From the NCBI RefSeq assembly GCF_030684035.1, contig NZ_JAUXPI010000043.1:1-64000 (forward strand): a stretch of 64,000 nt of DNA. Direction: 5' to 3'. A program made the position numbers and the translations under genes. This DNA is from Phaeovulum sp. (GTDB taxonomy: Bacteria > Pseudomonadota > Alphaproteobacteria > Rhodobacterales > Rhodobacteraceae). Shown piece after piece: positions 49,261 to 50,185 of this stretch. Numbering within the stretch: position 1 is the stretch's first letter; the number at the start of each line of letters is the position of its first letter. The notes beneath the pieces were generated by a model. The model saw only the letters and a program-made list of their open reading frames with translations. It was not told the origin of the DNA and ran no database searches.

Positions 49261-49330
49261 CGGCGCGCTTTCGGGGTTCAGCCCCCAATGCCCTGCCCCA
49301 CCACGCCGCGCAAGCCCCGCAAATGTAAAC

Positions 49331-49364
49331 GGCGGCACCCCAGGGAGGAGGAGGGCGTGCCGCC
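49331..49364 (-). ncRNA. CcsR-type hairpin 8 (distal copy)
   Basis: Stem GGCGGCAC (49331-49338) / GTGCCGCC (49357-49364), then a C/C mismatch and two more pairs. The 12-base loop reads CTCCTCCTCCCT on the minus strand and contains the CCTCCTCCC nonamer. Last of eight, nearest rlmJ. Confidence 0.8.
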
Positions 49365-49374
49365 GCCATATCCT

Positions 49375-49400
49375 TGACCCCAGGGAGGAGGAGGGGGCCG
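49375..49400 (-). ncRNA. CcsR-type hairpin 7
   Basis: Weakest stem: CCCC (49378-49381) / GGGG (49394-49397), extended across an A/C mismatch. The 12-base loop again holds CCTCCTCCC on the minus strand. Confidence 0.65.
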
Positions 49401-49414
49401 ACGGATGGGTGCGA

Positions 49415-49443
49415 TGCCGTCCCGAGGGAGGAGGAGGGAGGCA
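49415..49443 (-). ncRNA. CcsR-type hairpin 6
   Basis: TGCC-(G)-TCCC (49415-49423) / GGGAGGCA (49436-49443), 8 pairs with one bulged base. The loop contains CCTCCTCCC on the minus strand. Confidence 0.75.
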
Positions 49444-49457
49444 CCGCAGCAACGATC

Positions 49458-49479
49458 AGCCCCGGGAGGAGGTGGGGCT
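49458..49479 (-). ncRNA. CcsR-type hairpin 5
   Basis: AGCCCC (49458-49463) / GGGGCT (49474-49479), 6 pairs. The 10-base loop is ACCTCCTCCC on the minus strand. Confidence 0.75.
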
Positions 49480-49522
49480 TTTCGCATCAACTTCAGGCTT
49501 CGCGGCCCGATGGTTTTGAAGT

Positions 49523-49556
49523 GCGGCGACCCCGGGGAGGAGGATGGGGCCGCCGC
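49523..49556 (-). ncRNA. CcsR-type hairpin 4
   Basis: GCGGCG-A-CCCC (49523-49533) / GGGG-C-CGCCGC (49546-49556): 10 pairs with one mismatch. Loop ATCCTCCTCCCC on the minus strand. Confidence 0.8.
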
Positions 49557-49566
49557 CTTCTGCACG

Positions 49567-49594
49567 AGATCCCCAGGGAGGAGGAGGGGGATCT
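49567..49594 (-). ncRNA. CcsR-type hairpin 3
   Basis: AGATCCCC (49567-49574) / GGGGATCT (49587-49594), 8 perfect pairs. The 12-base loop contains CCTCCTCCC on the minus strand. Confidence 0.85.
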
Positions 49595-49631
49595 TCGCGT
49601 CTCGCTCGGGCCTCGCGGCCCCTGTTCTTTT

Positions 49632-49667
49632 GGCGGCACCCCCAGGGAGGAGGAGGGGGGTGCCGCC
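49632..49667 (-). ncRNA. CcsR-type hairpin 2
   Basis: Strongest stem: GGCGGCACCCCC (49632-49643) / GGGGGTGCCGCC (49656-49667), 12 perfect pairs. The 12-base loop contains CCTCCTCCC on the minus strand. The outer eight pairs are identical to those of hairpin 8. Confidence 0.88.
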
Positions 49668-49677
49668 GTTTTCCCGT

Positions 49678-49700
49678 GGCCCTAGGGAGGAGGAAGGGCC
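49678..49700 (-). ncRNA. CcsR-type hairpin 1 (proximal copy)
   Basis: GGCCCT (49678-49683) / AGGGCC (49695-49700), 6 perfect pairs. The 11-base loop TCCTCCTCCCT on the minus strand contains the nonamer. It begins 11 bases after the stop codon of the DUF1127 gene. Confidence 0.85.
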
Positions 49701-49711
49701 GGGAAGGAAAC

Positions 49712-49936
49712 CTATTTGCCGCCCTTGCCGTAGGCCGCCTCGATTGCCACGCGGGTGATCATCGAGCGGGGAATGCCAAGGTCGGTGAGTTCGCGGCTAG
49801 AAAGCGCGCCGAGTTCGCGCAGCGTCTGACGAAAGACCTTGCGGCGCTGGCGCGCCTCGCCGAGCCTGGCGAAGAGTGCGGCAGCGCGGTCGGCAAGGCC
49901 GAGATCGACGTTGATGTTGCCAAGTGCAAAGGCCAT
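49712..49936 (-). CDS. ccaF1: DUF1127 protein, CcaF1-like (CcsR-associated)
   Basis: A 74-residue basic protein whose C-terminal half (RQRRKVFRQTLRELGALSSR, ELTDLGIPRSMI) is a DUF1127/YjiS domain. In Rhodobacter sphaeroides the DUF1127 gene ccaF1 (RSP_6037) is cotranscribed with the CcsR1-4 sRNAs, and its product binds RNA and affects their maturation. Here the gene likewise lies immediately upstream of a series of CCTCCTCCC-loop hairpins on the same strand. CGGAG precedes ATG 49936, and a heat-shock-sigma-like promoter lies about 55 bases further up. Orthology is inferred from domain plus context. Confidence 0.88.
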   Translation of the reverse strand: MAFALGNINVDLGLADRAAALFARLGEARQRRKVFRQTLRELGALSSRELTDLGIPRSMITRVAIEAAYGKGGK

Positions 49937-49990
49937 GTTCTGGCTCCGTCTGCTGTTCCGGGGTGCGAGTGGTATTCGCTGTTGGGGCTA

Positions 49991-50018
49991 ACATGGGCAA
50001 AATGCTGCACTTGCACAA
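49991..50018 (-). promoter_or_regulatory. Putative RpoH-type promoter of the ccaF1-CcsR locus
   Basis: On the minus strand TTGTGC (50018-50013) is separated by 15 bases from CCCATGT (49997-49991). The -10 part resembles the sigma-32-type CCCATnT, and the -35 keeps TTG. Transcription would begin near 49984, about 48 bases before the start codon. The R. sphaeroides locus is RpoHI/RpoHII controlled, which fits. By-eye match only. Confidence 0.45.
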
Positions 50019-50185
50019 TAGGGCGCGAGATCAATGCTGCCATGCGGAAATTGCATAACGGTTACTGACCTAATTTGGGCTTACCCCGCGGCATTTGCCC
50101 AAATCTTACGCGGGTTTGTGATGAACTCTTGCACTTCGGCACATTCGCGCCAGTGTAGGCAGTGTCAATCGCGGCGGAGCGTCAC

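Follow-up and report, generated by a model that had tools for sequence, protein, structure and literature searches.

The window analysed here is a stretch of 64,000 nucleotides, and the locus under study lies on its minus strand (Table 1). A ccaF1-like gene for a DUF1127 protein is located directly 5′ of an array of hairpins on the same strand, and the array is followed by a minus-strand gene for an RlmJ-type methyltransferase (PF04378). The DUF1127 protein is 78–45% identical to the DUF1127 proteins that precede CcsR arrays in 10 other genomes. The window contains exactly eight copies of the nonamer CCTCCTCCC, all of them on the minus strand and between 49343 and 49693, and 100 shuffles contained a mean of 0.55 and a maximum of three copies. 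Local folding leaves all eight copies entirely unpaired, each in the loop of its own hairpin, and the 392-nt array folds better than 100 of 100 of its own shuffles (z = −6.3). The first loop lies approximately 22 nt past the DUF1127 stop codon, and the loops are spaced, from 5′ to 3′, by 40, 69, 41, 71, 38, 43 and 40 nt. An earlier sequence-only reading had placed eight hairpins downstream of a DUF1127 gene here, and the hairpins, the gene (by its PF06568 match) and the coordinates all stand. The stems of 4 to 12 pairs given in that reading roughly fit the uninterrupted parts, but the whole stems, as read from the local folds with bulges counted in, have approximately 11–15 pairs.

Table 1. 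Features of the ccaF1-CcsR-type locus and of the region upstream, in window coordinates.
Feature	Position	Strand	Remarks
Box 1, CGCATGGCAGCATTG, candidate VtlR-type motif	50032..50046	-	13/15 against the reverse-complemented Brucella VtlR motif
Candidate RpoH-type promoter	49990..50018	-	TTG 50018-50016, 18 nt, CCCATGTT 49997-49990
Box 2, TGCA-N6-GCAT, candidate LsrB-type box	50002..50015	-	as described at the NfeR1 promoter of S. meliloti
ccaF1-like DUF1127 gene, 74 aa	49712..49936	-	PF06568, E 2.7e-10
CcsR unit 1, hairpins 1+2	49628..49711	-	RF02791 1-83/83, 53.2 bits
Unit 1 loops	49685-49693, 49645-49653	-	
CcsR unit 2, hairpins 3+4	49518..49603	-	RF02791 1-83/83, 50.9 bits
Unit 2 loops	49576-49584, 49535-49543	-	
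CcsR unit 3, hairpins 5+6	49406..49491	-	RF02791 1-83/83, 36.5 bits, E 4.6e-8
Unit 3 loops	49464-49472, 49426-49434	-	
CcsR unit 4, hairpins 7+8	49324..49409	-	RF02791 1-83/83, 39.7 bits
Unit 4 loops	49383-49391, 49343-49351	-	

Several further observations concern the array and its genome. Over 15 nt, the stems of hairpins 2 and 8 show perfect mutual complementarity (49327–49341 and 49657–49671), and the minimum-energy fold of the whole array pairs these stretches across 315 nt. A simple scan found no intrinsic terminator after the array on the minus strand; the R. sphaeroides locus is drawn with a terminator, according to a figure legend. Scanning for sigma-70 promoters was likewise negative. 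The whole genome contains 15 exact nonamers, of which eight are in the array, and because the reversed pattern occurs 16 times, the seven outside look like chance occurrences and were rejected as further arrays. Two matches to 6C RNA (32.5 and 31.0 bits, below the gathering score of 47) were taken as a chance likeness of C-rich loops. The genome has two more DUF1127 genes, and no box of the upstream type (at most two mismatches) was found within 5 kb of them.

The Rfam family CcsR1 (RF02791) is an 83-position model that spans two hairpins, with a gathering score of 65.3 bits. Four matches, each covering model positions 1–83, together account for all eight loops, and a search at the genome level also returned four matches in this genome. 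The E-value of unit 1 was 4.3e-12 in one search and 2.2e-12 in another, and the match of unit 3, which overlaps unit 4 by 4 nt, appears only when its stretch is searched alone. The sequence-only reading had named a missing hit to the family model as a refuting result, and this condition applies in name only: all four matches are full-length, and none of them reaches the gathering score. Scores below this threshold are the rule in the family (nine of 198 family genomes reach it and 189 do not); therefore, the array is filed here under the locus type and not as a formal Rfam member. A CcsR1 match was obtained in 163 of the 198 family genomes, with 1–10 matches each, under strict filters that miss weak matches. 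The R. sphaeroides CcsR precursor RS0680a (2011) is described as two stem loops with an anti-Shine-Dalgarno motif in each (PMC3927594), and later papers, in the passages that bear on this point, number the CcsR RNAs of that species at four. One CcsR RNA thus equals two CCUCCUCCC hairpins, and four RNAs make eight loops. The array in the window consists of four CcsR units and is of ordinary size, not doubled. The sequence-only reading had correctly named the kind of locus, ccaF1-CcsR, in which a DUF1127 gene is followed by hairpins with anti-Shine-Dalgarno loops, but its "expanded" or "doubled" array resulted from counting RNAs in R. sphaeroides and hairpins here.

The number of loops in relatives bears directly on this correction. 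When named genomes were scanned with DUF1127 proteins, 216 places were confirmed, and the best 80 of these entered the comparison (a single C. johrii assembly contributes two contigs); R. sphaeroides is absent from these loci, and Cereibacter johrii and C. azotoformans were compared as its relatives. Both have eight loops in four pairs, spaced by approximately 39, 66, 37, 76, 39, 74 and 39 nt. Among the best 80 of the 216 loci, the number of exact loops per array was 0 in two loci, 1 in one, 2 in one, 4 in three, 5 in one, 6 in two, 7 in 11, 8 in 22, 9 in 10, 10 in 18, 11 in one, 12 in six, 13 in one and 16 in one, so that eight is the commonest count, with more in 37 loci and fewer in 21. The first loop lies 16–25 nt past the DUF1127 stop in 68 of the 78 loop-bearing loci in this set. 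The nonamer is kept in the nearest named relatives of the window, which have seven (L070, L072) or eight (L098) loops, so that its loss from close relatives, named in the sequence-only reading as a refuting result, did not occur. In two marine loci (L084, HTCC2083, and L089, Planktotalea), the same gene and promoter box are accompanied by loops shortened to, for example, TCCTCCC, which counts of the exact nonamer therefore miss. One genome (G051, a Cereibacter by its CcaF1; L001/L203) has 14 loops, with three near-identical units beyond those of C. johrii.

The idea of an expanded array that would provide stronger titration or copy-specific roles can draw on this variation, since copy number does range from 0 to 16 exact loops among the best 80 of 216 loci and attains 14 in the Cereibacter genome. 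However, the array of the window has the commonest count, nearly half of the loci (37 of 80) have more, and relatives with four units also have eight loops; we therefore regard this explanation as very improbable. Another possibility is that the stretch is not an RNA locus at all but a G+C-rich repeat or a coding sequence, and open reading frames do overlap the array in several frames. This possibility was weighed against the arms of 515 distinct hairpins, out of 667 in the best 80 of the 216 named loci. Paired with their own partners, the arms had a mean energy of −17.0 kcal/mol, compared with −10.0 kcal/mol for swapped arms, and their own partners were better in 92% of the 515 hairpins; shuffled arms (300 hairpins) had a mean of −9.0 kcal/mol. 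The nonamer was unpaired in 498 of the 515. The stems are maintained while their sequence is free, and the loop is fixed. Because the arms co-vary, the loops are invariant and the covariance matches are full-length, a repeat or coding stretch has a negligible probability. We conclude with high confidence that the locus is of the ccaF1-CcsR (CIN1, cuckoo) type and of ordinary size.

The maintenance of the stems together with the fixed loops supports loops that act by pairing. According to the accounts published for R. sphaeroides, the gene and the RNAs are co-transcribed and processed by RNase E to RNAs of approximately 80 nt, RNase E excises CcsR1-4 with the help of CcaF1, and flhR mRNA is a target of CcsR1-4. 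For NfeR1, mutation of the anti-Shine-Dalgarno loops is reported to abolish the silencing of ntrB. By analogy, the DUF1127 gene and the four CcsR units of the window would form one minus-strand transcript, a precursor processed by RNase E; the loops may base-pair with ribosome binding sites of the GGAGG type and lower the translation of a set of mRNAs, and the DUF1127 protein may assist the maturation of the RNAs. For the glutathione-dependent formaldehyde dehydrogenase, which belongs to a known target pathway, the search returned only pieces that scored under its threshold, and two of these lay at contig ends.

For the window and for 79 named loci out of the best 80 of 216, the 150 nt upstream of the gene were compared; L097 was omitted because it has no clear start. 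The sequence TTGTGCA is present in 79 of these 80 regions, the exception being L055. Allowing up to two mismatches to the consensus TGCATRGCNGCATTG, box 1 is present in 73 of the 80 regions, and it is exact in 39; among 400 simple shuffles the maximum was three, although the consensus was read from the same sequences and the shuffles thus exclude composition only. Box 2 is exact in 59 regions and has at most one mismatch in 74. The distance from the start of box 1 to the start of TTGTGCA is 28 nt in 68 regions and 27 nt in 11 (n = 79). In the window alone, box 1 is not significant (one match against 2.06 expected at up to two mismatches), and the weight of this candidate box rests on the comparison across genomes, not on this window. 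The Brucella VtlR motif is quoted in the literature as CAATGCAGCCATGCA (PMC12595884), and as a reverse complement, TGCATGGCTGCATTG, it agrees with the family consensus in all but one position (14/15) and with the window copy in all but two. The same source reports that in Brucella the sRNA AbcR2 and three DUF1127 genes are under activation by VtlR (PMC12595884). An LsrB box of the form TGCA-N6-GCAT is described at the S. meliloti NfeR1 promoter (PMC10746234). Box 2 overlaps TTG-N18-CCCATGTT, that is, the candidate RpoH promoter. A promoter of the RpoHI/RpoHII type is reported for ccaF1-CcsR of R. sphaeroides in a figure legend, and TTG is given as the conserved −35 core of both RpoHI and RpoHII promoters.

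A joint signature of the two elements, GCATNGCNGCATTG-N9-15-TTGTGCA, was searched through 120 family genomes. It occurs at 66 sites in 64 of them and is absent in its exact form from the other 56, and the reversed-pattern control gave no site. All 66 sites were inspected with up to 1.3 kb of downstream sequence: a DUF1127 gene follows 60, at least two copies of TCCTCCC follow 64, and at least two full nonamers follow 59. Every one of the 66 precedes a DUF1127 gene, an anti-Shine-Dalgarno array or both, and at none of them is the array on the opposite strand. Six signatures are followed by an array without a DUF1127 gene (L196, L212, L215, L233, L243 and L246), and two by the gene without an array (L244 and L247). 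L244 shares its genome (G094) with L243, and L247 shares its genome (G048) with L246; in both genomes, the gene and the array are separate, and each has its own signature. At the site L255, in G055, two loops precede the DUF1127 gene rather than following it, with the promoter signature ahead of them.

The genome contains 15 LysR-type places, and one of these genes (G000:C32:45621-46541, L138) has as its best structure match 9hh1, at 249 bits compared with 110 for the next structure. The entry 9HH1 is a deposition of A. tumefaciens LsrB, and its paper calls LsrB unique to Rhizobiales. In the reverse comparison of the LsrB piece with the 15 LysR loci, the same gene scored 245 bits and the next 130. 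Over the first 62 aligned residues, the identity is 74–77% in seven family members. With an E-value of at most 1e-60, the regulator occurs once each in 59 of 61 family genomes, at 49–86% identity; the two genomes without it are 85% and 74% complete, and it is present in 56 of 56 genomes that are at least 90% complete. In the class as a whole, 81 of 142 genomes match it at 1e-55, three of them twice. According to another paper, both VtlR/LsrB and its location near trxB are conserved in many Alphaproteobacteria, and our genome counts favour such a wide distribution of VtlR/LsrB over one restricted to Rhizobiales. Outside the family, 28 loci with the best scores were inspected, and trxB lies just upstream in 26 of them; of the remaining two, one begins at a contig end. 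Within 1.5-kb flanks, trxB adjoins the LsrB-like gene at none of seven Rhodobacteraceae loci, and it is not beside the gene in the genome of the window. There, the gene adjoins a purL-like gene, with gene names read by eye. We read the gene as a probable ortholog that left trxB, and we name it "LsrB-like" only. The redox cysteines of A. tumefaciens LsrB are absent from the regulator of this genome, which has one cysteine at a different place, and most of the 15 proteins inspected lack them (0 or 1 cysteine each); therefore, redox sensing should not be carried over, and the signal may differ.

The question is then which regulator, if any, uses the upstream boxes. The main competitor of an LsrB-like protein is PhaR, the PHB-responsive repressor, whose binding to the boxes would make the operon follow carbon storage. 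The family consensus TGCATGGCAGCA agrees at 11 of 12 positions with the Bradyrhizobium PhaR consensus TGCRNYGCASMA, and the window copy at 10 of 12, so that PhaR matches box 1 almost as closely as VtlR does. However, the conserved TTG end of box 1 falls outside the PhaR consensus, box 2 has the spacing TGC-N4-GCA, and VtlR provides the precedent of a regulator that activates DUF1127 genes and an sRNA; control by PhaR is thus quite unlikely. The search for a phasin gene, intended for a promoter comparison with PhaR, gave only one weak match below the cut-off. It could also be argued that the conserved block reflects merely an RpoH promoter and common descent, with no further regulator, given that the compared species are related and that the R. 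sphaeroides work, in the passages available, names RpoHI and RpoHII alone for the ccaF1-CcsR promoter. Conservation is unevenly distributed, however: it is high in box 1 (1.65 bits per column) and in ATTGTGCA (1.98), falls steeply in the spacer (0.31) and in the 5′ UTR (0.20), and is also lower in CCCATGTT (1.16) than in either of the first two. These values come from 36 non-redundant sequences among 53 usable regions, 27 of the 80 having been omitted for a short flank or another spacing. Moreover, in the two genomes in which the gene and the array are apart, the signature has been kept before both. Descent and RpoH without an additional regulator are therefore an unlikely explanation.

We consider it fairly probable, from the sequence comparisons above, that a VtlR/LsrB-like LysR regulator and an RpoH-type promoter control the operon. 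The two would together set the transcription of ccaF1-CcsR, with the LysR activator bound at two candidate boxes, of which box 1 lies upstream and box 2 overlaps the −35 element. VtlR/LsrB-type control of ccaF1-CcsR is newly inferred here: among the papers listed by literature searches, none joins CcsR or CcaF1 with VtlR, LsrB or a LysR regulator, and in the passages of two papers that mention both CcaF1 and LysR, the latter appears in the reference lists only. A broader joint reading, to which we incline only slightly, is that the VtlR/LsrB-type LysR regulator, spread through the whole class, belongs to the core genes of Rhodobacteraceae, where it would have left trxB and lost the LsrB cysteines, that its conserved role there may be the activation of a single operon, ccaF1-CcsR, and that the promoter merges the LsrB and RpoH inputs, which in S. 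meliloti act on two different sRNA genes.

Known systems resemble the locus in different respects. The ccaF1-CcsR1-4 locus of R. sphaeroides likewise has a DUF1127 gene, four two-hairpin units and CCUCCUCCC loops, and the candidate promoter of the window would be compatible with the RpoH type reported there, but the stem sequences of the window differ from it, and units 3 and 4 of the window are closer, with 43 nt between loops instead of approximately 70. The Sinorhizobium RNAs ar14 (NfeR1) and SmelA075/SmelA099 have several hairpins with the same anti-Shine-Dalgarno nonamer, and weak ar14 matches occur in the window (39.2 bits, below the gathering score of 58.8); unlike the two hairpins per unit observed here, each of these RNAs carries three or four. 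NfeR1 is transcribed from a sigma-70 promoter of its own and is described as Hfq-independent, whereas CcsR1-4 are described as Hfq-dependent. The VtlR/LsrB regulon of Rhizobiales activates DUF1127 genes and anti-Shine-Dalgarno sRNAs (AbcR, NfeR1) through similar boxes. There, however, the sRNAs are separate genes, whereas the gene and the sRNAs of the window would form one operon with a candidate RpoH-type promoter. In S. meliloti, AbcR1 is under LsrB and AbcR2 under RpoH1.

The CcsR locus of the window in itself adds one ordinary member and a corrected count, in which RNAs are distinguished from hairpins. The promoter evidence offers more, namely, a candidate regulator, open to testing, that would act upstream of a much-studied stress sRNA operon, which has so far been named, in the passages available, with RpoHI and RpoHII only, and it ties the VtlR/LsrB–DUF1127–sRNA circuit of Rhizobiales to Rhodobacteraceae. 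If the joint reading is true, a DUF1127 protein and an anti-Shine-Dalgarno RNA under VtlR/LsrB would be an ancient regulon unit of Alphaproteobacteria.
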